Of a stretch of DNA of 64,000 nt, positions 30,271-50,971 are shown in pieces. Each line of letters opens with the position of its first letter. The stretch's first letter is position 1. The notes below the pieces were generated by a model. The model did not search any database and had not been told where the DNA came from. It saw only the letters and a list, made by a program, of their open reading frames with translations. The stretch lies in contig JAACJP010000022.1 in NCBI GenBank assembly GCA_013368375.1, positions 558,001 through 622,000 on the forward strand, given 5' to 3'. The position numbers were made by a program, and so were the translations under genes. The DNA comes from Tricholomella constricta. Its lineage: Eukaryota > Basidiomycota > Agaricomycetes > Agaricales > Lyophyllaceae.

Positions 30271-33200
30271 ATGGCACGATGTCAATTCTGCAAGGGCCCT
30301 TTCAGCACTCCTGCAGATGTTCGGCGACACCAACAACAGGCACCAGCCTGCCGAAAGAAGTTTCAGTATCATTTTGCATCTATGTTCGAATCTCGACGAC
30401 GGCGAGAAAAGGAGGCGGTCCAGACGGAGCCCACACCAGAGTCCATCGAAGGCACCGTTCATGAAATGGTCGTTGACCCTCTTGATGAACCCACAGATCT
30501 CAGTAGGGACATCTCAACTCCCGAAGACGACATCACAGAGGATGTCGATGCTATACCTCCACGGATCATCGAGGTTGAGGACGTTGATGCACCCAGAAAA
30601 TATTGGAAGGAATCCTTACCGTCATCACATGCAGCAGGACATGCGGGCGCAGCTGGGAAGACACCGTTTGAATCGATACGAGATGATCAAATTTTGCACG
30701 GCGTAGACATCCTGGGCCCATTTGAGGATGATGCCGAGTGGGAGCTGGCAAAATGGCTGATAAAAAATGTTGGGCATAACCAGGCCGAAGCATTTCTAAA
30801 GCTGAAGATTGTGAGCAACAAAATTATGTGAAGAGAGCGTGGACTTACATACATGACATGTTTTGCTAGATTTCGGAACGCTCAAAGCCATCGTACTCAA
30901 ATAAAAGGCAATTTCTGGACAAGATAGATAGTCTACCTGGCGGGGTCAACTGGACATGCATCGATATCAATGTTGAAGGTGATTTACCTGACTACGAGAG
31001 GGACCCATCTGGATCAACAATGCGTCGCGAAGCTGTCGAGCTATGGTTTCGGGATCCTGTGGAATGTGTCAAGGAATTGATGAGCAACCCAGCCTTTCGC
31101 GAGGTGATGAAATACGCACCAGAGCGCATTTTTCTTGATGAAAATGGGGAAATTCAGGTGACCAATGAGATGTGGACTGCGAAATGGTGGTGGGAGATAC
31201 AAGTCAGTTCTCATCAAGGATTCAGGAAGCGGAATAAGCGAACTGACTTTCTGATATGTAGAAGCGGCTTCCCAATGGGGTGACCATCGCACCACTCATC
31301 ATCTCCTCGGATAAAACACATCTGTCCAATTTCCGTGGTGACCAGTCAGCGTGGCCCATATACTTGACCATTGGGAATATATCGAAGGATACTCGCCGTG
31401 AAGTTTCCTCTGGAGCGACCGTCTTGATTGGCTACCTCCCAATTCCCAAATTTGATTGCTTTAGCAAAGATTCACGGTCGCTCGCCAAGTATCGCCTATT
31501 CCATACGTGCATGGGCCTTGTCATGAGGTCGGTGGCTGAGGCAGGTAAAGCTGGCATAGATATGGTCTGCTCTGATGGTCTTGTGCGGAACGTCTGGCCG
31601 ATTTTTGCAGTGTATATTGCGGACTATCCCGAACAGTGTCTTGTGGCATGTTGTATGGAAAATCGGTGCCCGAAGTGTCCTATTCGTCCTAAAGAAAGAG
31701 GATCCCATCGAACCGAACCTGCACGCAATGTCAACGAAACCCTCTTCTATCTGCGGCGACGAGCTGAAGGAGAGAATGACACCGTTTTCAAAGACCATGG
31801 AATGCGCGCTGTCTATCCACCATTCTGGGCCCAACTGCCTCATTCCGACATCTTCCAGTCTTTTACACCCGACCTGCTCCACCAACTACACAAGGGAGTT
31901 TTCAAGGACCACCTTGTAAAGTGGTGTACAGAAATAATTGGAAAAGAAGAGGTAGACGCACGTTTTCGAGGCATGCCATCTCATCCGGGTCTTCGCCACT
32001 TCAAGAATGGGATATCTAATGTCTCGCAATGGACTGGGACGGAGCACAAGGAAATGGAGAAAGTGTTTCTGGGGCTCGTCGCAATTGGGGTGAACGAACA
32101 AGTTGTGAGGGCAGTGCGCGCCATCATTGACTTTGTTTATTTTGCATCACTTCAGTCACACACCACCCTTACTCTCACCGCCCTTCGCAATGCCCTCGAC
32201 AACTTCCACACCAATAAACAGATTTTTCTTGACCTTGGTGGCCGGTCCTCGGACCATTTCAATATTCCAAAAATTCACTCTCTCGAACACTACGAGGAGG
32301 CCATCACTCTCTTTGGCAGTGCCGATGGATTCAACACCGAGTCTCCCGAACGTCTCCATATTGACTTTGCGAAAAATGCCTACCGTGCCAGCAACCGAAA
32401 GGATTACATTGCGCAGATGACCCGTTGGCTTGAGAGACAGGAAGACGTGAATCGATTCTCTGCTTACCTCGAATGGATTCGGGCTGCACCACCCGCACCT
32501 GAGCAAGCGAATAATGAGGACCTCGTGGTCACACAAACAACTTCCTACCTGTTCACCCTCGCAAAACGACCCCCACCTTCCTCCAGGACCCTTGCCAGCC
32601 ACATCATCAGCCCCGACGGTCACAATGCATCCAGGTTTCTTGACGCTCTTGCCATCTTCATCACCCAGCGCCATCACTTACACTTTGTTCCCCGCGAATT
32701 TGACGTATTCCCTCTGTGGAAACGTCTAATCTTTCATCTACCACAGATCCCCGAGGTTGGTTTTCGACACAACAAAAGTATTATACGAGCCATTCCCCCG
32801 ACACCTCCGCATGAAGGTACAGGCCGACGCAGCATACCCGAGGCTGCACACTTGGACTATGCCTTCATTCGGACAGGTGAAGTTAACGAGCATACTAAGG
32901 GGACTGCAATTCAGGGTACGTTGCTTCTATTGGCCGTTATGTACATCGAACTGACGCCCACTTTGTAGGCCTTCGAGTTGCTCAAGTGCATGCTATCTTT
33001 CAACTGCCGTCACATTATCCTGTCAAGTCTCCAATCCCGCTTGCCTACATTGAGTGGTTCACACCCTTACAGAGTCCCGATCCTGTTACAGGATATTATC
33101 ATCTCGGGAGATCGAGCAGGAAAAGGAGGGGTCACAACGGGCCTTATGGAGAAATCATTACGATTGACCGAATAGTCCGCAACGTGATGCTCATTCCATG

Positions 33201-36918: not shown

Positions 36919-37120
36919 TTCGGTGCTCCGTCTTACCCTGTCTCCGTGCATGCTGTGCCAAATCATTTGCATGCCCTGTATGAACTGTCAGCCTTTTTAT
37001 TGCTTGAAATCCACAATATTCTTAGTCATCGAAGCCGGACCTTGTAAGCCATTTAAACATGTCAGCCATCGTTTATGGTATCGACCTAGAGACCACTCGA
37101 CACACCAGACCCTGGGGCTA

Positions 37121-38130
37121 TGATGCATTATCTACCCTAACCAGTGTTGCTTAGTGATGCATCGCACACCCTTGTTAGCATTGATTGGTTATGCATTACA
37201 TTACCATTCAGTGCCGCTACTTACCTGCCGCCCCTCCCTCGCCTATCCTTCTCCTCCTGTTAGTTGATAATGCATTAATGACTCCATCCATGTTAACCTA
37301 CTAGTATGCGGCCACGGCTGATGCATCACAAGGACAACGATGCATCACCACCGTTCACTTGCACACATCTGCTCACGCCCCCAGGGTGATGCATCAGCTG
37401 ATATATAGGTACGCCCTCCACTCGTAATGCATCACTAGAACTCGCGCGGGAAGCTATGGCCAGAGCTAATGCATCAAGAGCTCACCCATGCATCACTGCT
37501 GACTCGCAAGCAGACATCGCTCGCCCTCCCTTCGGTCATGCATTAGTTCAGTCATGCATTATCTTTGCTGTCGACGTCCGCTTCCCCTCCGTGGACAGGT
37601 AATGCATCATTGAAGTTCCTCGTCGAAGCTTCGTGGAAGGACCACCCGCCCTATGGCGCATGTAGATGCCACTCCTCCAGGTGATGCATCACAGCACGGT
37701 GCCCGCTCGCCTATCGAAGAGTGATGCATCAATTGGTAAGTAATGCATTCCTATGGTTCGTGGCATGGCTTCCGCTGGGACCGTGGCGTGGCTCCCGCTA
37801 CCACACCCGTAATGCATCATCAGTCCAGGCCTGATGCACCACAGCACGTTGCGCAGACCGTCTGTCTGGATGATGCACTGTGCCCCAGTAATGCATCACA
37901 CGGCGGGGTGCCATGGCTTCCGCTACAACATAGGTAATGCATCATCGTGCGCTTCTGGATGCCCCTGATGCATCGCAACCCGTCTACGAAACCGGTGATG
38001 CAATGCACGGTTCCCGTAGTTGGTCGGTAGAACAGTATGCGTGATGCATTACAGAACAACCAATGCATTATCCAGGTTCTCGTGTATGCTATTCTACGAA
38101 TATGCGTGATGCATCACTCATGCATTAAAT
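37121..38130. repeat. Left subterminal array of TRATGCATYA palindromes
   Basis: About 24 copies of ATGCAT in 1.0 kb (hand count), most extended to TGATGCATCA, TAATGCATTA or the hybrid forms, spaced irregularly by 15-110 bp. Degenerate copies such as CTGATGCACC also occur. Outside the element ATGCAT is rare in this window. Confidence 0.93.
37762..37852 (+). repeat. Left arm of the 91-bp inverted repeat
   Basis: Begins GGCATGGCTTCCGCT and ends CAGCACGTTGC. It matches the reverse complement of 49766-49856 over 91 bp with five mismatches and no gaps, by eye. Confidence 0.93.
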
Positions 38131-38506
38131 ATCCCTAGGTTCGCTACCAGTGCTTCTTTTGCAAGCTGGATACATTACCGAGTGGGCGGTGTGAGGCCTG
38201 ATGCTGTAAAAGATTGACTTGTTTGTTGCCTCGTCGTACATATTAAACAGATGATATTGTATGTGCATCAAGAATACAAGATATGTAGCGTTAGATAGAG
38301 ATCAAGAAAGCAAGATATACGACACTAGATAGCGAGCAAGACAAAGCGGACACGTGATAAAAGCAAAGTTACAATGCAAGAACGAAGACGAGGGACAAGA
38401 TCAGCAGATAGATTAGCGACGGACAAGATTAGCGACCGAAAACAAAGGTTGAAATTGACGAGAAATAAAACATCACCAACGGGCAGGCTCACCATGAAAG
38501 CGAAGA

Positions 38507-41459
38507 TTAGGAACGAGCTTTCTTGGCCCTGATTGTCATGTTAACTGAGGTTCAGGAAAGAAGGCAAAAGAAAGCTCACCGTTTCGATGGACCTGATTCA
38601 TTTTCCTTAGCGCGGCTTGCACGCTTCCGGCTGGGCGCTTCTGGCTTCATTTTCTCCAAGCATTGACGGACATCGTCAACACATGCACGCCAATGCGGCT
38701 CTGAGCTCTCCTGCCACTGCGAGCCCGACTTCATGCATTGGCCCCACCACACCAGAACGGTGAGCACTGACACCAGGCCATTCGGACCGCCCTTCCGCAA
38801 CGCAGCCCACTCATCTACGCTCGACACACTGAGCTCGGGGGGGTTGTACACTGGCTTCGGCATCAATCCGGACTCGCTTTGACGGAAGGGGGGCTGCATA
38901 CTCTTCCACCAAGCCATGACGGCGTATCCGAAGTCGAGCGGATCCGTGATAGTCGGTGTTGCGTTATAGGCACGAACTCCATGGCGACCCTTAGCAACCC
39001 ATTTGGTCCATTCCTCGGGCCGAGACTTCGTGGAAGGCAGCACTCCCTTCGCATTTGGACCCATTGCCTTCTCGAATACGACCCACGCATTCACGCACGC
39101 GGTCCACCCATCTCCGAGATCCCGTGTTGTTAGATGGGCTTCGGCCGCCAACTCCCAGGCTGATCGCTCGTGTTCCAAGCCGGGCGGGATGTTCTCCTTG
39201 TTCGATGGGTCGGTGGACCGTTTCTGGAACGAGCCAATCTTGTTCATCGCATCTGCCCTGGTCGATGGAATGATGTGGCGGCCGGACCGTGAGCGAGACT
39301 GCAGGGACGATGATGCATCAGTGCTGTCATCAGCTTCGTTGGCTGATGCATTAGTGGGTAACGCGAGCTGAAGACGGCTTGTGACAGTCGTGTTATTTAA
39401 CTGAGGTTCCGGAGTGCCAGAAGATGAATGGTGATGGGCAGGAGGAGGTAAGGGAATATCGGGAAGGAGGGAAGGATCGGCAGGGAGAAGAGCGGGCGCA
39501 ACGGCGGAAGGATTGGGGAGAGGGACGGCGGGCTGAAGGGGTGGGAAAGCACTGTTTTGGGGCGCACTTGATTCCATGGGAATGTCAAAGCCAGGCATTG
39601 CGATGCTAGCAAAGGGTACATTGTCTGGAGGAAGACCAAATGTGCCTGGCAGCTGCGGCGCGGCAGTCAGGCCGGACATGTTGAAACCCGGAAAATTGAA
39701 CGTGTTGAGCCACGAGAGGTCAGGGCCGAACTCAGGCTGGAATTGATAATTGTCTGGCCCCATATCGGCCCCGTCTACCTTGTCACCAATGTCGAGCAAC
39801 GTAGATAAGAGGTCTTGGTCGTCGTTGAGGAAGGAAAGTTCAGTCCCATCTGGTACCTGAGGTGCAGGAGCGTTAGAAGTGGGAGCGGCAGAGGAAGGAG
39901 TGAAGGGATTCGGTGGCTGATCCAAATCTGGCACGGCGGGCAATGGGGGCGGAGTGGGAGAGGTCGAAGGGAAAGGTACCGGTGTCGTTGGTACCGGAGA
40001 TATGGGGGAGCTAATGCCTGATACCAATACCGGACAGGGGGGACTGGGCTGAGCGGAAGCCGGTGGTGTCTGCGGAACGGGGAGGGCGGGGACAATGGTT
40101 GACACCGGTACCAGATGGGAAGGCAGTGCCGTCACTGGAACAGGGGCGGGGGTGGATCCGGTTGATGCATCACCCACAGGAGTACCTGGACACGATGCTT
40201 CCAGAGTGATACAAGATGTTAATGCATGAAGGCTCACCTGACGATTTGGATAATGCATCAACAGTCGATTGGAGTGCTCCGATATCAGACTCCTTAAGTA
40301 ACTCTAAACCTTCGCCTATGTTCTCCTCAACGCCATCCAAACTCATACCGACCATTTCCTGGGGATTCGCATTCAAGGCTCGAGATTGACGAAGAGCGGG
40401 CGCTGGATATTCCAAGGTCAGTCAGTCAAAAAGTTATTGGATACCTACACGCCACTTACGATACACATGCGTCAGGAAGTCAGTAAACGGCTCCATGTAA
40501 GACTTCTCGAAGTCCGGATGAGCTTGCCAAAATAGCTTCCCGGTGCTGGTCTCGCCAACATGGTAACTGGCAGAAGAGGTTGGCTCATTGGAACACTGTC
40601 GAAGTACGTGTCTAGACTTACCTTGCCACAGTGACATCACCGCCTACTGACGGATTGGGACCACCCATGAGAACAGAGAAAGACCATCCCGTTTTATCAG
40701 CGAGTGCGGTCAGGAGACGACCAAGGGTTGCGGCGCAGTCCTGAATTGCGCTGCGAGAATAATTGAAGATCAGTGTGAGTTTATTTCACATCACCGGCCG
40801 CCGACTTACTCCATATACTGCTCATTTGTCCGTGGTCCGAGTTCTGGCGCTAAGCCCCGCGCGTGAATAAGTTCTGCTAGCCGCGCTTCGACCTTTGCTT
40901 TGGTTTCCTCGTCTTCTTCTTCGTACATCTTCCGCGTGATACTGTTGCTCAACTTTAGCTTGTCACGGCCCTTGATATTCAAGTTCATGGCCTCATTGGT
41001 GACAACGGGTTTGATCTTGTCATCATAGCATAACTTGGAATATATCTCGGACTTCTGCGGCAGACGCTTTGAACGCGTGAAAAGTTCATTAAGGATCTTC
41101 GGCTGTTTTGTAACCGTACGACCATTCGATGATGCTCTCCATCGGAACCATGATTGTAGTTGCTAATCAAATAAACATTCAGTCATCACACGAGACGACC
41201 AGGACCAGAGTGATGCATCACGAACCTGGCGTCGCACTTGAATCGCGGCCTTGAGCTTTTCTGTGTCATCAGGCGTATTGTCGGATAGCGGTCTTCCGGG
41301 GAAGAGGACTTCATTCTCAGGCCATTGGCAACCCCAGTCCCCATACAGCAGAGGCCAAAATTTGGAAAAATCTTCAAGTGCCTTGGCCTCGAGATAATCA
41401 TTGAACCGCGACTGAAGAAATTCACGCTGCGGCTCTGTGGTCCATGGGCGTGCAGGCAT
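38507..41459 (-). CDS. KDZ cargo protein A, unknown function, Pro-rich with conserved Trp-rich C-terminal domain
   Basis: The ATG at 41459 gives MPARPWTTEPQREFLQSRFN. The N-terminal part is helical and charged (NELFTRSKRLPQKSEIYSKL, YEEEDEETKAKVEARLAEL, NEQYM), then SYHVGETSTGKLFWQAHPDF and MEPFTDFLTHVY. The centre is a long Pro/Ser/Val-rich disordered region. The C-terminal domain is Trp-rich: GDGWTACVNAWVVFEKAMG, SRPEEWTKWVAKGR, DFGYAVMAWWKSMQPPFR, WAALRKGGPNGLVSVLTVL. The end, PSKRAKKARS with TAA at 38507-38509, looks like a nuclear signal. About six introns splice in frame. Related proteins recur in mushroom genomes beside KDZ transposases as far as I recall, but have no named function. 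The transposon motif occurs both in its introns and inside its codons. Confidence 0.75.
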
Positions 41460-41762
41460 CTACACAGGAATCATTATTAAGCACTCCAGAAAGTTAAAAA
41501 TGACACACGATCGAGCCAATCTCCTGGAACCTGATGTCGAGCACGATTACTCGTGAAATTTCCCCGATTGTGCTGTTCCTGGAGCGGCAGTCGATGCCGA
41601 GAGATGCCGAGGTGAATGAACTGGCAAGCTCACAAGGTCTTCAGCCAATCACGCTCTTCCCATCAATCATTGGCATCAAGCCACCATAACCGTAATCAAA
41701 GCCCATCAGGACCCATCTGCACTTGAACCTTTAACCTCATCCCCACTCTATATTCTCCAGTG

Positions 41763-42784
41763 ATGACCCGCATGACCAGCACCAGTGACAAGGTGAACGG
41801 AGCTGCCGAAGCGCCGTCCCCCCTGACACTGTCCCAGTTGTTGGAAGTCCTCGCTTTAAGTGGCCGTAAGTGCCAGGTCCTTTGTTTATATGTTTTTGAC
41901 ATGATGTTTCAGGTGTCCGCGGACCTGTGGAGGCGCCGTCGACCCTGGGACATGATCAGCTGTTGGAACTCATGGCCCAGGGAGGCAGTAAGTGCCCAGT
42001 CCTTTGTTTATATCACTTTTTGTTGACATCATATTCTAGGTGTGTCTTTACATGTGGGCGACGCGACTTCTGCGACGACGTTGCACGCCACCGCAACCCT
42101 TCCGCCCGTCGCCCCAGCCTCCAGCCTCAGTGGGGTCACTGCTTCCCCCCCCAGCCCCATCACATCTGGTGGTGCCAGCGGCAGTGGTGGTGCAGCAGTG
42201 GTTGCCGCCGCAGGTAAACTATTCAATACCTATGTTGGATTCCCCGACGCTCATCATTTTCCCTTCACCTTAGCGGGCGCAGCGACCATTCCAGTGCCCC
42301 CCGTCAGGACTAAGGTCATGTGGGCTGATGCTTTTGCCGCCGCTGCGAGCCCCCCAGCAGAAGGCAGTGCGCTTCCTGGCGCACTGACTCCGCGTGAGCC
42401 CATCATCGTTAGCGATAGCGGAAGCGAAAGCGAGGAGGAGGAGCAGGAGGCGGTTCAGAATGAGGAGGAGGAGAATGGTAAGCACTTCTTTCATTGCCTT
42501 GCCACGCCCACTTACAGGTCTATGTAGTAGCTATTGACGTCCCTGGCAGGCGGTGGTATGTAGTTACGAAGGGCAGAGAAGTTGGCGTCTTTGCCGGCTG
42601 GTGAGTTGTGGAAACCGTTCCTGATGTACAGTGTTATCGCTCAACTTAACTCCACAGGTACGCTACCGCCCCTCTTGTTGTGTCCGTGAGTGGCGCTTGT
42701 TATGCCTGCGCCAACTCCCGCAGCCAAGCTATCGCCGATTTCGCGGCTGCTCTCAACGCTGGACTTGTTTCACGCATACCCTAA
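41763..42784 (+). CDS. KDZ cargo protein B: viroplasmin / RNase H1 N-domain-like protein
   Basis: The ATG at 41763 gives MTRMTSTSDKVNGAAEAPSP. The first two small exons are tandem copies (122-bp period, introns included): LTLSQLLEVLALSGR and STLGHDQLLELMAQGGS. Next is an Ala/Ser/Pro-rich region and an acidic stretch (SDSGSESEEEEQEAVQNEEEE). The last two exons give RRWYVVTKGREVGVFAGW and YATAPLVVSVSGACYACANS...AIADFAAALNAGL, the fold known as Caulimovirus viroplasmin / RNase H1 N-terminal domain, which binds RNA-DNA hybrids or dsRNA in RNase H1. No RNase H catalytic domain follows. TAA is at 42782-42784. Introns: 41866-41912, one after each of exons 2-5; the acceptor TATGTAG before AIDVPG was chosen because it alone keeps the domain in frame. 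Confidence 0.78.
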
Positions 42785-43709
42785 ATCTGCACGTTATCAT
42801 TTTTTTGGACATTTTCGCAGCCTCGTGTACATTATCATCCCACCTTCTTCGCTGCCGTACTCCCACCTGCCTCTGCTGTCTGTTGTGTTGTGTTTGTCTG
42901 CTATCATGCATATCTGTCGTCATTGTATCTATGTCTTGTTGTTCACCACCATCACCCATCACCCATAACGCATTCCCATCCACCATAATTGTAATACACG
43001 CCTACAACCTCTCCTTACCCCCCTACACCCGTACCTAGCTTCATAATATATAAAAATATCTTGGAAAATACGTGCGTGAAACACAAATTTGATTGAAATA
43101 TAATCAATGGTGAAACCAATGAGGCCTGCGGCGATGGCGAAACACGAGGAAGGAGAGAAGTAAAGAAGTGACTCGATCATGATCGGAAGAACTTATTTCT
43201 GGAAATAGACGTATCACGGTTAAAAGTAGGCTCGGACCGCAACCCAAGAGGTGGGGCAGCCAATCAGCGATCGAATAAATAGGTACTGAAATAAATCACA
43301 GAATCATAATATAAGCATACGAGATGTTAGAGGCGATTCTGACCTTTATAGAGTATCTCAAAGACTTCTTTACATTCATACCTTGTTCCAAGTACCACTT
43401 TGAATAACTAATGATCATTCCCCAAGTTATGAAACTGGACGAAGTAGATGTGGGGTTGGGACCGAAACCAACCCCATCTTTGGCACATATTCATGACCGG
43501 TGCTGAACAAATCTCTATTTTCGCCATGTTCGAAGTCAGTTTGTCTATCTTAAAGCTATCAAGTAGCCATGGGCGGGTGGCAGATGTCGGTTACCGACTC
43601 TGAAACCCCTTTTATCAGAAGTTTCCATATTGTGGGTCAGAGGTTTAGACTCTTTGAGGGCACGATTTGACCGCCCACTGTCTGTAATATATATGTATAT
43701 GAAGGGTAG
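42785..43709. other. Internal spacer of the KDZ element
   Basis: AT-rich spacer between convergent cargo genes; no gene seen and, notably, hardly any ATGCAT motif. Confidence 0.55.
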
Positions 43710-44453
43710 CTACGTCCAGCGGTCTAAATACAGTAATAGAAAAGCATCCGACCCCTTCTGAAGTGACGCGAGATCCTTCTGTAAGTGACATACACGCCGT
43801 GCTTGCCACTGTAACAACCCCATGCCCAAATGACTGTGAATGCTGTTATTGATGATACGTCGCATCACCAATCGCAGTTCCTTCCATTCATTGTGCTGAT
43901 GTACGAGTTCCGCATGCACTTGAGTTGCAAAAGTATCGGGTGATTCGGTCTTGTATCGATGCAAGCGTAGATCTTCCTGTTCTCGTTGGAGACGGAGGCG
44001 GTAGCCGTGAAGAGCGTCCGAGAGACGGTTGGGGTCCTGTCGAGAAGGATAGGTGTGAGGATATGGTGGAGGACAATCCCACTTCGCGAGTTCTGTGTCG
44101 GAGTAGTCGGTATCGTCGAGCGCTTCACGACTCTGTGCTGCTGAGCGAAAAAGGGCTGAATGCGGAATGGGAAACTCGGCCAGCGCAACGAGCTCAGGAG
44201 TGATGGATGGGACTGAGAACTTGGGCAGGGTCACTTTCGGTGGCTTCGGCGGTGCCAAAGCTTTGCGTATTTCATAGGCTCGTTGATTCTGGGCTTTGCG
44301 TAAAAGTTGACCACTAGACTCGTAGATCAGATGAGGCCCATGATTGTTATCGGAAAATGTAACGCACTGTGCTGTTCCGCTGGATGCCTTCTTACAGCGC
44401 CGTGCCCCTGCGTCCTGCTCGGCCTGTGTGAGGTACTTCGCACGCCGACCCAT
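43710..44453 (-). CDS. KDZ cargo protein C, small basic protein
   Basis: The ATG at 44453 gives MGRRAKYLTQAEQDAGARRC, a 247-codon single frame ending FLLLYLDRWT. The Lys/Arg-rich start followed by RKAQNQRAYEIRKALAPP resembles short basic-region proteins that I recall near KDZ transposases in mushroom genomes. The rest is helical and charged (RLSDALHGYRLRLQREQEDLRL, HQHNEWKELRLVMRRIINNS). It may have an intron after RRC (a GTAAGAAG donor is present), but the frame is open either way. It starts about 220 bp from the transposase start, on the opposite strand, so the two likely share a promoter region. A DNA-binding role is a guess from charge and position. Confidence 0.6.
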   Translation of the reverse strand: MGRRAKYLTQAEQDAGARRCKKASSGTAQCVTFSDNNHGPHLIYESSGQLLRKAQNQRAYEIRKALAPPKPPKVTLPKFSVPSITPELVALAEFPIPHSALFRSAAQSREALDDTDYSDTELAKWDCPPPYPHTYPSRQDPNRLSDALHGYRLRLQREQEDLRLHRYKTESPDTFATQVHAELVHQHNEWKELRLVMRRIINNSIHSHLGMGLLQWQARRVCHLQKDLASLQKGSDAFLLLYLDRWT

Positions 44454-44677
44454 GGAGCTGCAGTAATGTAAGCGATCTAAGAAACAGAGCCCAGCAGTGG
44501 AAGAGACAAATGATCCAAAAGACTAGATCAGAGCTGAGTCGCTTGGTCGGGAATTTATTCAAGTCGTCGTGATGGGTGAGTTCAACCCTTCTGACGATGC
44601 AGACACATTTCCGAAAATGGGCTGTTTGGTGGTGTTTCATTCAGAACGGTTTTACCTCGCCTTTCAGCTCCCGAGCT

Positions 44678-47600
44678 ATGAATCTAAAAAACACGAAGCA
44701 AAAGAAATACAAGTTGACTTTTCATAAAAGTCTTACCGTACGCGCCGACGATTCTCAGCAACTTCGACACAAAAGCACTCGTTTTTCAGCCACCAAGAGT
44801 GGGGTCCATGTCTCTACCTCATTTATCACGACAACACAAAAATCTGAAGTCTCACTGTCCCTGCTTAATTCTGATCGCGAGACTCGCAAAGACATTGGGA
44901 CATCTGATCCCTTGGACGAGACAGACGCCCTATTCGATCAAGCGTATATCGATTACCTGGACCAGGTCTCTGTGGAGCCAGAGTCAGTGCGAGCACCTCG
45001 AAAGCGCACACCAGGGGTAAGTGTTACCGTTGTTTTTTTTTGGGAATTACTGGTTTGACTGAACAATCGTAGGATGAACCACTACTCCTTTGGATGCCCG
45101 AACGTGAGAGATTCCTTGAGGAACTGATCACCCTTGAAGGCCGGGGACATGGCGCATCACATATCTGTCGCATCTGTCTTTCGGAGAACAGGGATGCCGT
45201 GTACGAATGCCTAGACTGCTTCAGCAGCCGGGGGCTGCAATGTAAAGACTGCCTGCTTCTGGAGCACGCCGTCAATCCACTGCATCGGATCCAAGTGAGT
45301 GATTTTCACGACTTAAAGACAACTCACGAGTCTGATGCATCATCTCAGGAATGGAACGGGGCCTTTTTTGTCAAACAGAAGTTGAAGGACCTGGGTCTAC
45401 GGGTTCAGTTAGGGCACGCGCGTGGGACGCAATGTCCCAACCCTGAAAGGTGCCCGGGTGATGATTTCACCGTGATCGACACACATGGGATACACAGCAT
45501 TGGCATAGACTTTTGTGGCTGTGGGCAGTCCAATCAGCTTCACACAGTCCAACTCCTTCGTCACCGCCTGTACCCTGCAACGACACAGTATCCAAGGACC
45601 GCGACGACATTCAGAGCTCTCGAGGTCTTCGAGCTCTTGTCATACGTCTCCAAAGTATCGTCATTTGAGTACTATCAAGCATTGGCTCGGCTCTCCGACA
45701 ATACGGGCACAGCGTCACCTCCTGTGAGTCTCCAATTGATTCACTATCATGCTATTTTACTCATTTGTCGGTGGCAGGATCGGTATCCAAATTTCTTGCT
45801 CAGCATCCGTCAATGGCGCCATCTCAAGATGATGAAGCGCTCTGCTCGAGGACATGACCCGGAAGGTCCTGTGGCCGCAACGAAGGAAGGCGACTGTGCT
45901 GTGCTTTGTCCTGCTTGTCCCCAACCCGACAAGAACCTACCGGACGGCTGGGAGGATGCGCCTGCAAAAATAAGGTACATTCACACTCATTACTAGTGGT
46001 ACCGTCACTGACGCTTCTGGTAGATTTCTATATGCTCTGTTTCTCGCGATTGACGCCAACTTTCGGCTCAAGCGCAAGCACGTCTCTAACGACAGAGTTG
46101 ATCCTGACCTGGGGCAAGGCTCGGCATACTTTGTGGAGCAGAAAGGGTATACCGTTCACCTCGAGAAGCATAAGGATGAAACTGAACCGGTTCGTGCTTC
46201 CCTTCTGCTATTTATGCCCTATCTGATCCAATTCTCTACAGAAGTCTAATTGTTCGAGGCATGACGCGGTGAACCTCTCGAATGCCAAGCCTGGTCAATC
46301 TCATGCAGCCACCGGTGTCGGAACCATCGAGTGTGCCCGCCATAATATGAAAAGGCCCAATGCGGTCGGAGACCTCCAATTTGGCGAAAGGTGGGTGCTC
46401 GTCTTTGTTCCGTCTTACGAGTACTTACTGACATGGGTGATAAGATATTGTAATATGGACTACCTCTTTTACCGAAGCCTCTTCACTTCGAAGGTCAAGG
46501 TCGTCTATGTCTCTTATGACATCGCGTGCCAGTGGTCAATCAACCTCCGAAAGCGCATGTTCGACATGGACCACGAATTCTTCATCTACAATGGCCGGAC
46601 ATTTGTGAAGTTCCTTGTGCCGAAGTTCCATCTACCCGCACATGTTTCGGGATGCCGCAACAGGTTCTCGTTCAACCTGACCATCGGCGTCGGCCGGACC
46701 GACGGTGAGGCCCCGGAGCGTGGCTGGGCAGAGGTCAACCCCCTGGCTGCGAGCACCAAGGAGATGGGACCTGGCTCTCGGCGAGACACGCTCGATGCTC
46801 ATTTCGGCGACTATAATTGGCGGAAGGTTGTGGGAATGGGTAAGCAAATTTATATCTGCTTCGTCGTTGTTGAATGATGTAAGTGCTATATTTAGGTCCC
46901 ACCCTCCTACGCAAGTTTCGAGCTGCTACAAATGACATGGCTACTCATACCATTGCTCATGAGGAGCTCACCGCGTCCCTCCCGCCTGCCACTGTTCTCG
47001 AGTGGACAAACGAAGTGGAAACATGGGAGAATGACCCGAAACCAGACCCGAAGCAGCCGACCCCTTACGATGTCAAGGTCGCAGGTCAGTATTATATTTC
47101 CATGGCTTCTTGCCCCCGGCTAACGTGCCATGCAAAGTTCCTACCCAAGCTGCAGTGCGCCGTCGAATGACAGAATCGGAGGCCGCAGATCTGGCGTCAG
47201 GGAACGATTCCGCACTGGATGTACATATCACGCCCAGTGTTCTCATCGCAACTGGGCTCGATTTAGAGGCTGAGCAGTGAGTATCATCCTATTAGTTATT
47301 GCATCACGGTCTTTTTCTACGGTGCCAATGCATCAGTGATGCATGGGCATCGAGTGCGAACGCATCGGCCATGGCCCTTACACTGATGCATCGCCGATGC
47401 TTCGTTGGCGATGCCTTGTACCCTCTATCTGCTGTGACACTGATTCTAATATATTTCTGGGTAGACGTTCTATCAAAGCCGAGACTGCCAAGGTATGGGA
47501 CCATGCGCAAGATCGTCAAAAAACCCGACTTCAGCTTCGAAATAATGCATTATCCCGTAAGATTACCATCTGGACCTCACGGCAACAACTCTATATTCCC

Positions 47601-48536
47601 GCCGTTGTAGTCTTACGGCGGATGGAAGCCCATGCAGCCCAAACAAGGAAGACGGCCATCCCCGTCCACGAATACACATTATGGCTCCCCTCCCAGATCA
47701 AATCGAAGATCTCTTTCGACACAAACCTCGCGGAGATAGAGTGGGAGTTACGCAAAGCCCAAGCAGACGAGGCTCTTGAAGGGCTCCGTCGTAATCTGCA
47801 GATTCGATCATACCTCTTCAGGTTCAAAGACCAGAACGTTCGGGGCCAGCATGCGAACACGCGAGCCCGGAACGTCATTGCGACTGTACAAGCCAGAATC
47901 AATACCTGTGCGGAAGAGTACCGAGCAGCTCATACTGCATTAGTGGCGCTTTCGGTCCTTCTGACCAAGGTGGGCTGGCAGGACCAGCTGTTAGTTTTAG
48001 CCAACGAGGACATTCGCGAGATCTCGGGAGAGGAAGGTGTTGGTCAAGGGAAGTTTGTCATGTCATGGATATGGACGACGAAGGGTGTAGCAGGCATGGG
48101 CGCGGACGATGAGATGTTTCAAGATGGTATGTTGTGATATCTATCAAATCCGGGTATGCGCTGATCGATTGATGCATCAGCCCTTCGAATCGAATGGTGT
48201 AAATCCAGGGCGCGTGCCATGCGATTTACCGAGGAAGTCGCGCTTTTATCAGAGGAGATGCAGCGCGTTCTCCGATTCTTCAAGTGGCAGCGGGAGTGGT
48301 GGAAGGCCAAGGGTCAGTATTGGACGGACAGCGTTATGGGCGAGACTCCACGCGGCGAAGGCTTGCGAGCATATGCTGAGCGTCAGGCTGCAATTCGGGA
48401 CGCTCTTGCAGCACGGTTCACCATGCTGTGGCTACCAGTGCCAAGCTGCATCCAGCAGGCACGCGAACGTATAGCGAACGCAGTCTCGGGTACCGCAGAG
48501 GTTTCGTCAGGCACCCCAGACCAAACTATGTCTTAG
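44678..48536 (+). CDS. KDZ transposase with CxC2-like cysteine cluster
   Basis: Cut-and-paste transposase. From the ATG at 44678: MNLKNTKQKKYKLTFHKSL, a basic N-terminus; an upstream in-frame ATG at 44597 is possible. Exons splice to DEPLLLWMPERERFLEEL and the cysteine cluster CRICLSENRDAVYECLDC...CKDCLLLEH (CxC2-like, known from KDZ proteins), then HGIHSIGIDFCGCGQ, NFLLSIRQWRHLKMMKR and CPACPQP. The catalytic region has FLAIDANFRLKRK (first Asp), VVYVSYDIACQWSINLRK (second Asp) and GEAPERGWAEVNPLA (Glu), all present. The C-terminal half is helical (ALRIEWCKSRARAMRFTEEV) and ends GTPDQTMS with TAG at 48534-48536. About ten introns, several holding TGATGCATCA copies. No lesion found, so it may be active. 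Confidence 0.93.
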
Positions 48537-49040
48537 TATTACCACATGCACGTTCTTGTCGTACTTATCAATTGTATTTTGTTCCAGAAAGGTATCATCG
48601 ACAGTGATTTGCTTAAGAGAAGTACTACAGCTATAAGTAGAAAGGTAAATGTAATGCATGACTGATGCATGACAGGCATGGATAGGGGAGGAGGGTAATG
48701 CATCGCTCGCTTGCAGAAGGTTGTCAGTGCGATGATGCATGATTCATGTTCAAACTAAGAGCAGCAGCAGCAGGCAGAATGTCGTATTATATAATGCATT
48801 GATTTGGTCCATATACAAGTATTGTACTATCAGTATCCTCGGAACAAGGCGAAGAGCAGGAACCGCAGGATACCTGATCCAATTACGCCGGGGGAGGGGA
48901 GAGCGGGCAGACGTCGAGGCTGGAACCATAGGAATGCATTACTTACTACTTGATGCATCACTCTTCAATAGACAAGCGGCCTGCATGGTCACCATGGGGC
49001 GCGTCGCCTTTTCCGTAATGCTTCGACAACACCCTTCGAT

Positions 49041-49650
49041 GATGCATTACCTGTCCGGGGAGCGGGAGCGGGAGCAGACGCCGAGAGGGGCTACAATAAT
49101 GCATTACTCATGTCGAGGCTCGAACGGTAGGAATGCATTACTTACCAATTAATGCATCACTCCTCTTCGACGAGGCTCTCCGATGATGCATTACCTGTCC
49201 GGGGAGAGGGAGCAGGAGCGGACGTCGAGAGGGGCTATAATAATGCATTACTCATGTCGAGGCTCGAACGGTAGGAATGCATTACTTACCAATTAATGCA
49301 TCACTCCTCTTCGACGAGGCTCTCCGATGATGCATTACCTGTCCGGGGAGAGGGAGCGGGAGCAGACGTCGAGAGGGGCTATAACAATGCATTACTCATG
49401 TCGAGGCTCGAACGGTAGGAATGCATTACTTACCAATTAATGCATCACTCCTCTTCGACGAGGCTCTCCGATGATGCATTACCTGTCCGGGGAGAGGGAG
49501 CGGGAGCAGACGTCGAGAGGGGCTATAATAATGCATTACTCATGTCGAGGCTCGAACGGTAGGAATGCATTACTTACCAATTAATGCATCACTCCTCTTT
49601 GACGAGGCTCTCCGATGATGCATTACCTATCCGGGGAGGAAGAGGGAGCG
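49041..49650. repeat. 144-bp tandem repeat, about 4.2 copies
   Basis: GATGCATTAC followed by CTGTCCGGGG or a close variant recurs at 49041, 49185, 49329, 49473 and 49617, exactly 144 bp apart. Each unit contains four ATGCAT motifs and differs from its neighbours by only a few bases. Confidence 0.95.
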
Positions 49651-49765
49651 GGAGCGGACGTCGAACCGCTGTGTGATGCATTCAAGTTATCGGTGAATGC
49701 GCCTGGGCTCTGCAACGTGCTGTGATGCATTGTCTGATGCATTATCGGTGAATGGCCTGGGCTCT

Positions 49766-49856
49766 GCAACGTGCTGTGATGCATCAGGCCTGGACTGATG
49801 ATGCATTACGGGTGTGGTAGCGGAAGCCTCGCCACAGTCCTAGCGGAAGCCATGCC
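49766..49856 (-). repeat. Right arm of the 91-bp inverted repeat
   Basis: Reverse complement of 37762-37852 with five mismatches in 91 bp. It proves that the two arrays belong to one element or at least one family. Confidence 0.93.
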
Positions 49857-50060
49857 AGTGGATCCCGCTGCGTGATGCATTATTGGTGATCACACCTGGG
49901 GCATATTGCATTATTCAGGAGCACAGGGATTTCGTGGTAGGGGGAACAGATATATCACCATGGTAGGCGACCCACGGTACTTTTATGCATTACTGTTGAT
50001 TGTCATTACTGGGCATGATGCAACACATGTCCACACTCATCACTGCACGATAATGCATCA

Positions 50061-50394
50061 AAGTATCTCTATAGGCTGCTCGACACGCATATATAAGGAG
50101 TCACATTCTATAACCCAAACTCCCCTGCAACTCCCGTTAGACGGTTGCCCTTTAAACAAGAGGAGTTGGATGATTCAATCCAGCTACTGACGAGATTGAA
50201 ATTTGGGGTATAGATATATTTCGCCAGTCAAATCATTGAAAATGTGGGGCCCTTGGAACTGAGTTCTCATAGGCTTGACAAGCCTAGGCAATTGTGAACC
50301 AATGCTACTTCTAATAAATTTATTACAAGAAAATATCTACTGATCCAAGGGAGTGTGGAGTGTTCGTACTAGGTATATAGGGTATATAGAAAGT
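50061..50394. other. Intergenic beside the KDZ right end
   Basis: A plus-strand ATATATAAGG box at about 50089 has no supported gene behind it; nothing else seen. Confidence 0.5.
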
Positions 50395-50903
50395 TCAAAC
50401 GCTGACGTTGATGGGAGTGCAGCCAATGGCGACGACGCCGTTCTTGGATGAATCCGTTAGCATCATGCAATGCGGATGTTCGTATTTTCGCAAGTACTCA
50501 CGAAGTTGTTGTTCTCGCAGCAGACGGTCTGAGTGTTGCAGGAGGTGCCGGCGACGCCGAAAGCGGAGACGGGAATGCAGTTTACTACGCGGAAGGTATC
50601 ATATCCGAGTAAGCAAATATACTCAGCGCAATTCCTAGGGATGACACTCACTGCCAATGGGAACGTTGACATCCTGGATGGGAATGCTGAGACTGCTGAG
50701 CAATGCAGCGACGTTCGCATCGTCCGCCTGTTCGTAGAGCGATCGATGGTAAGTGACAGTGTTGATCTCATGATTGTAAAGGGCCGTACGCTTTGGACGC
50801 TGTTGCAGCACTGCTGGTTACCGGAGCTGCACTGGGAAACGGGAGTGGCAGCCACCAGGAGGGGCAGAGCGATGAGGAGAGCAGCGGAGAGACGAGCGAA
50901 CAT
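50395..50903 (-). CDS. Class I hydrophobin
   Basis: Small secreted surface-active protein that coats hyphae and fruit bodies. The ATG at 50903 gives MFARLSAALLIALPLLVAAT, a signal peptide. The eight hydrophobin cysteines are all there across four exons: QCSSGNQQCCNSVQ (C1-C3), INCIPV (C4), TSCNTQTVCC (C5-C7) and IGCTPI (C8). Introns lie after VQS, after IPIG and after NNNF; splicing uses GTACGG, GTGAGT and GTGAGT donors. TGA is at 50395-50397. Spacing between C3 and C4 is about 30 residues, normal for class I. An in-frame upstream ATG (50957) would put the signal peptide internally, so 50903 is the likely start. A TATAAAAG box lies about 70 nt upstream. The KDZ right end is only about 335 bp beyond its stop. 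Confidence 0.95.
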
Positions 50904-50971
50904 TATGAAGCTGGGAGGTTTAGTAGAACGGTGCGTGTCGTTGAACTGAGTGTCCATCGTCTCTTCGCTGA

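Follow-up and report, generated by a model that had tools for sequence, protein, structure and literature searches.

The window is a 64,000-bp stretch of the Tricholomella constricta genome (GenBank assembly GCA_013368375.1, contig JAACJP010000022.1). It corresponds to C22:558001-622000, where Cn denotes contig n. The window contains a KDZ transposon that carries an array of ATGCAT palindromes at each end and four genes between the arrays (Table 1). The order array, gene A (-), gene B (+), gene C (-), KDZ (+), array is kept in the elements on C16, C33, and C43.

Table 1. Features of the KDZ transposon, in positions of the window.
Feature	Position	Strand	Remarks
Complete Kyakuja-type KDZ transposon	37103..50078	+	12,976 bp; second copy and 7-bp duplications
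Left target-site duplication CTCGACA	37096..37102		Same letters as 50079-50085
Left palindrome array	37123..38125		24 ATGCAT; first three offsets 20, 54, and 88 from the end
Gene A	38576..41459	-	Multi-exon, approximate model, middle exons uncertain; candidate array-binding protein
Gene B	41745..42781	+	Small exons, weak conservation
Gene C	43710..44453	-	247 aa; 41-51% identity over the main aligned stretch in three related elements
KDZ transposase gene	44597..48536	+	Nine predicted exons, about 1164 aa (start uncertain), CxC2 then KDZ
Right palindrome array	48654..50058		32 ATGCAT; outermost site 20 bp inside the right end
Right target-site duplication CTCGACA	50079..50085		Same letters as 37096-37102

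An earlier interpretation of these letters, here called the sequence-only reading, proposed a KDZ transposon with ATGCAT-palindrome ends and an apparently intact transposase. The nine-exon model agrees with this. It contains a CxC2 domain (PF18803, E=1.6e-41) and a KDZ domain (PF18758, E=3.1e-57) that spans profile positions 1-217 of 217 and is thus complete in Pfam terms. Residues D382, D502, E565, and E568 (P0007 numbering) are invariant across 30 aligned proteins, the window model included, and presumably comprise the catalytic residues. The same reading placed three other genes inside the element. Three further conserved genes are present, with gene B only weakly conserved. Gene A has no recognised domain and gene C matches no Pfam family.

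The ends of the element are defined by comparison of copies in the genome (44.1 Mb, 118 contigs). A search with each end recovers a second full copy at C22:144566-157541, at a distance of 450 kb on C22 and in the same orientation. An alignment of 12,978 positions shows 11 substitutions between the two copies and no gaps, and their homology breaks off at identical bases on both sides. Copies ending elsewhere had been named as evidence that would count against the element; the second copy shares both ends. The positions first proposed for the ends, 37121 and 50060, are corrected to 37103 and 50078 by the copy alignment and the 7-bp duplication, and comparison with further elements fixes these positions.

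Both ends are readable in eight array elements (C22 twice, C5, C16, C21, C33, C38, and C43). All eight are flanked by perfect 7-bp duplications, each different from the others, and an 8-bp duplication fits none of them. The left (L) end of the window element is CACCAGACCCTGGGG. Among the array elements, the L ends read CACCAGACCCTG (CACCAGGCCCTG in C21) and the right (R) ends, read inward as the reverse complement, are CAGCCTATA, as in the window. The termini are CACCAG on the left and ...GGCTG on the right in all eight, which corresponds to CA..TG. There is no extended terminal inverted repeat (TIR), since L and R match at 9-11 of the first 20 bases. Beyond the first palindrome, 10-17 of 53 bases are alike.

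These characters are congruent with Kyakuja, a group from Agaricomycetes (Kojima 2025) that is described in the main text of its source with 7-bp duplications, CA..TG termini, and no TIRs (PMC12730594). The window element shares all three and has a KDZ transposase. It differs in one respect: the published families carry TET/JBP, for which they had been selected and which is not a requirement, whereas none is detected in the array group. By its target-site duplications, termini, and missing TIRs, and as far as sequence can tell, the window element is a recently active cut-and-paste KDZ transposon of the Kyakuja type.

Other assignments are less congruent. In the Cryptococcus elements KDZ1-3, too, the transposase is of the KDZ superfamily and carries a cysteine-cluster domain. 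In the portion of their description drawn on here, they have TIRs of 139-241 bp, duplications of 8 bp (KDZ1) or 4-8 bp (KDZ2 and KDZ3), and CxC1 (PMC12810828). The window element, in contrast, has no long inverted repeat, a 7-bp duplication, and CxC2; the long TIRs and 8-bp duplication of a Zisupton/Cryptococcus KDZ type are absent, and this type is rejected. A CACTA (En/Spm) identity is likewise rejected, because neither CACTA TIRs nor a 3-bp duplication is found. In the cited account, the soybean CACTA element Tgmt has 13-bp inverted repeats and 3-bp duplications, and the protein TNPA reads the subterminal repeats of En/Spm (PMC2613891). The likeness to En/Spm, as far as that account goes, lies in the many short motifs at both ends, which are asymmetric and family-specific, and in a second, non-transposase protein. 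The CACTA transposase is unrelated, and the window element differs in having TGCA palindromes that are phased to the cut.

The element contains 70 ATGCAT sites, and the 51 kb of the window outside it contain 15. The first 1.6 kb of the element holds 24 sites, the last 1.6 kb holds 32, and the interior holds 14. The two arrays thus hold 56 sites, in line with the more than 50 terminal cores first counted by hand. The excess over random sequence is also borne out: in 200 second-order Markov simulations per composition, the mean is 3.8 and the maximum 11 with background composition, and the mean is 8.9 and the maximum 17 with the composition of the element itself. Every other palindromic hexamer occurs six times or fewer in the ends of the window element. 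The claim that most cores extend to the 10-bp palindromes TGATGCATCA or TAATGCATTA was overstated. The strict forms account for 17 of the 70 sites and the looser TRATGCATYA for 40. Over 186 array sites from four elements, the favoured flanks are G/A-T-G/A before the core and the mirror image after it, with T at position -5 in 81%.

Part of the R array is a 144-bp unit repeated 4.3 times in tandem (49037-49664), as expected if the arrays were functionless satellite that grew through tandem duplication. No long tandem array is found in the L array, and the 70 sites of the window element occupy 45 independent flank contexts, with 22-45 such contexts per element. Non-homologous ends also keep one register, described below, and satellite growth is a highly improbable explanation.

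The first ATGCAT begins exactly 20 bp from either end in all five full elements that were measured, including two near-identical ones. Terminus patterns were searched with 5-30 bases permitted between terminus and ATGCAT, a range of 26 spacings. Among the R-type matches, 14 of 16 have the 20-bp spacing, the exceptions being C2 and C27. Among the L-type matches it is found in 10 of 12, and the other two (C15:360k and C53) lack the CACCAGACCCTG terminus. When 23 ends (10 L, 13 R) are laid out from the cut, the second palindrome is present as an exact ATGCAT at offset 54 in eight of ten L ends and at offset 55 in 12 of 13 R ends. Where it is not exact, the C33 L end and the C22 R end retain TGCA and the L end designated C38b does not. 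A third site (any NTGCAN) lies at 88 in eight of the nine L ends of sufficient length. Within the arrays, independent neighbours are most commonly spaced 33-35 bp apart (17 of 107 pairs; the mean 3-bp bin holds 2.95 and the next best 9).

An outermost palindrome that starts exactly 20 bp from both ends, followed by a second at 54-55, looks new. In the main text of the Kyakuja paper, figures and supplements aside, the word "subterminal" does not occur and "palindrom" occurs once, in reference to gene borders (PMC12730594). A literature search joining "Kyakuja" and "subterminal" returned no paper, with many journals outside its coverage.

The arrays correlate with one group of KDZ genes. KDZ elements are abundant in the genome, with at least 157 matches to the KDZ domain; a separate search with the KDZ segment of the window as query gives 112 matches. 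An ATGCAT L terminus, R terminus, or both is present at all ten KDZ genes with 69% or higher identity to the window (69-100%; C22 twice, C5:958k, C17:4k, C15:215k, C16:183k, C33:156k, C21:153k, C38:306k, and C43:43k). The loosest case is C15, where only an R end is found, 15 kb from the KDZ gene. In the window, C16, C21, C33, C38, and C43, the R end lies approximately 3.2-3.6 kb from the KDZ gene. The next KDZ loci have 63% identity or less, except for a 56-residue piece on C10 (68%; the main piece of this gene has 46%).

A scan for paired palindromes gives 58 matches, compared to none in the reversed control. These form 14 loci and two lone pairs (C2 and C6). An array-group KDZ gene is present at nine of the 14 loci. 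The expectation that arrays would not be widespread without a KDZ gene is thus largely upheld. It fails at five loci (C56, C58, C59, C91, and C105), each of which has a diagnostic L or R terminus of the element itself and no array-group KDZ match. These five look like remnants for that reason. On C59, the array-type terminus is found 2 kb beyond a KDZ gene that belongs to the second group described below. The R ends at C56:10456, C91:16684, and C105:9069 share an identical 14-bp flank and are probably a single insertion represented on three contigs, through duplication or assembly haplotypes.

A second, more distant group of KDZ genes has a different palindrome in the same register at the R ends that were read. 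In 5-kb R-side flanks of five KDZ genes at 54-62% identity and of C27:326k at 39%, TTTGCAAA-type palindromes and the terminus CACCTGATGCTG are found at C5:1002k, C50, and C33:245k and are not seen at C19, C6:1402k, and C27:326k. With C59 as a fourth case, the TGCA core is located at offsets 20 and 54 in all four R ends (as TTGCAA, once as TTGCAG). A third core lies at 88 or 90 in all three R ends of sufficient length. The R-end region of this group has only four or five palindrome sites. Wherever ends could be read, the register and the TGCA core are retained and the outer letters change.

The TTGCAA-type terminus pattern occurs 15 times. Among the 18 KDZ genes at 54-63% identity, 12 account for 13 of these occurrences; the other two occurrences lie elsewhere (C5:591k and C19:407k). 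These 12 genes have 54-61% identity to the window KDZ. The terminus lies 1.8-2.2 kb from ten of them, 7.5 kb from C27:163k, and 15 kb from C5:823k. The paired TTGCAA pattern gives 54 matches, compared to two in the control, and the pairs flank seven elements of 12-23 kb (C14, C27, C29, C33, C42, C56, and C59) that enclose both KDZ and TET genes. Genome-wide there are 23 TET/JBP (PF12851) matches, with one or more within 14 kb of each of the 12 KDZ genes that have a TTGCAA-type terminus. TET/JBP tracks this terminus exactly on C5, C14, C22, C27, C29, C33, C42, C50, C56, C59, and C67. A thirteenth match adjoins the C10 KDZ gene. None of the 23 matches falls in an array element, a result obtained with a weak Pfam model under which even the TTGCAA-group matches score 26-32 bits, below the cut-off.

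To our knowledge, no mechanism has been described by which a transposase finds its ends without TIRs. In the sequence-only reading, the ends are defined by how many palindromes they contain. As worded this is not supported, and position fits better: the outermost site lies 20 bp from the end, and the related group keeps the same register with four or five R-end sites. Its further proposal, cooperative binding of an element-encoded protein to the palindromes, is plausible. The transposase is the sole protein shown to be common to the ATGCAT and TTGCAA groups, genes B and C having been left out of the search of the latter, which puts the transposase first among candidate readers of the proximal sites. 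It is also the most likely one. In the array group, the palindromes are multiplied to dozens per end, no TET gene is detected, and the additional sites coincide with gene A, which makes the gene A product the first candidate reader of the arrays. The arrays may serve this protein.

The probable interpretation is that phased palindromes are read by the KDZ transposase and replace the symmetry of TIRs, with the extended arrays as extra sites for the transposase or the gene A product. The transposase, probably dimeric through its cysteine-rich N-terminal part, would read the phased proximal palindromes and place the cuts 20 bp outside the first of them. The symmetry that TIRs normally provide would come from the palindromes instead. 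The extended arrays would add sites for the transposase or, in the manner of En/Spm TNPA, for the gene A product, and such sites could raise occupancy, synapse the ends, or hold off silencing.

Alternatively, the element may exploit a host protein that binds the palindromes, such as a factor of chromatin, replication, or transcription. A short palindrome such as ATGCAT would suit this binding, and of the 14 interior sites, seven are situated outside the predicted exons, some of them in introns. A host factor does not predict a fixed 20-bp offset, however, and the palindromes of two groups in one genome differ while their register relative to the cut is the same. This explanation is improbable.

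The arrays lie past the 3' ends of gene A and of KDZ, and no ATGCAT is found in either divergent promoter gap (41460-41744 and 44454-44596). This arrangement speaks more for a part in end recognition or chromatin than for simple promoter control. It bears on a further alternative, in which only the proximal sites are transpositional and the long arrays are landing sites for the gene A protein as a putative sequence-specific anti-silencing factor that replaces TET, comparable to VANC on VANDAL elements or TnpA on Spm. VANDAL elements are Mutator-like. Their arrays in Arabidopsis are located in introns and upstream regions and are read by the protein VANC, and in the cited portions of the literature VANC targets are non-coding tandem arrays of a short motif that differ between related families (PMC5735166, PMC10398659). 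The T. constricta arrays resemble these, as described there, in their short motifs, in growth by tandem repeats, and in divergence between related families with a co-encoded protein. They differ in that gene A has no recognised relation to VANC, and any anti-silencing role is putative.

Gene A is confined to array elements: all 11 genome matches to its C-terminal part fall there (C22 twice, C16, C17, C38, C43, C5, C58, C33 twice, and C21). The complementary distribution of TET/JBP is also as anti-silencing by gene A would predict. All 11 differences between the two C22 copies (37592-47170) are transitions, and eight are at CpG, which holds 23% of C/G positions (binomial P ~0.0007). This pattern would be expected of a methylated transposon; it suggests methylated CpG in the element and indicates deamination at CpG in an element that moved recently. 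The anti-silencing reading is weakened by the poor, domainless model of gene A, by the lack of a match to its C-terminal part in the C15 array element, by the position of the arrays downstream of genes and away from promoters, and by its dependence on the weak TET model. It is possible and is held only tentatively.

Relatives of gene A are present in Lyophyllum, Hypsizygus, Tricholoma, and Tephrocybe, with a weak relative in Suillus. The closest protein relatives are in Lyophyllum, Crassisporium, Tricholoma, and Hypsizygus, which, together with a hydrophobin gene beside the element, suggests an agaric source. In Tricholoma furcatifolium, relatives of gene A and KDZ are found on neighbouring locus tags (H0H92_009670/009673 and 013032/013029), with contigs of equal length.

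Several observations weigh against end reading by the transposase through phased palindromes. Every comparison is drawn from one genome, and structure models give no informative match. The 9-11 of 20 bases shared between L and R leave room for a weak residual inverted repeat, which could itself be the signal. The layout of 23 ends leaves out the C2 and C27 R matches, and its counts are inflated by related copies (C56, C91, and C105 share one flank; C38 and C43, and C15 and C33, are near copies). At the R ends of the array group, the third site lies at 88-90 in just five of 13. Neither terminus is found beside six KDZ genes of 55-63% identity (C37, C19, C4, C6 twice, and C14:711k), and no repeated palindrome occurs in 5 kb on the R side of the C19 and C6:1402k genes. 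The register is therefore not shown as general. Within the TET-carrying group, base-level reading covers the R ends and the L termini are inferred from patterns. Twelve of the 54 TTGCAA-pair matches have no KDZ gene of this group nearby, five of these matches being copies of one C11 sequence.

A broader model is that Kyakuja elements have a switchable address, made of palindromes at fixed distances from the cut that replace TIRs and whose outer letters change with the transposase. One lineage would have exchanged TET, an enzymatic route of anti-silencing, for a massive array and a dedicated array-binding protein, gene A, and would thereby parallel Spm TnpA and VANC in a fungus. Taken as a whole, this model is rather unlikely. 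A fixed register shared by two groups with different palindromes in one genome makes end recognition, and its co-evolution with the transposase, directly testable. Where arrays plus gene A appear to have taken the place of TET, two routes of resistance to silencing can be compared in nature.

Additional structures occur near these elements. The C5 element is 55.2 kb long because a 22,174-bp insertion (C5:914264-936437) sits within its array; with the insertion subtracted it is approximately 33 kb. The insertion, of which the ends alone were observed, has identical 220-bp direct terminal repeats (TG..CA) and a 5-bp duplication, CCTCG. R ends of the CAGCCTATACGG type, without ATGCAT, are present at C38:316009 (minus strand) and at a second locus, L075, beside KDZ genes of 39% identity. 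The C38 array element lies 81 bp from a CAGCCTATACGG-type end and may sit inside the element to which that end belongs. At C6:1404.7-1407.8k, a KDZ gene is followed downstream by direct repeats whose period is approximately 1.38 kb. Within the window, an open reading frame for a Plavaka transposase, from another kind of DNA transposon, lies approximately 4 kb to the left of the element (31280-32968; PF18759, E=5.3e-91). On the other side is a hydrophobin gene (50463-50957; PF01185), the coding end of which is approximately 385 bp from the right end of the element.

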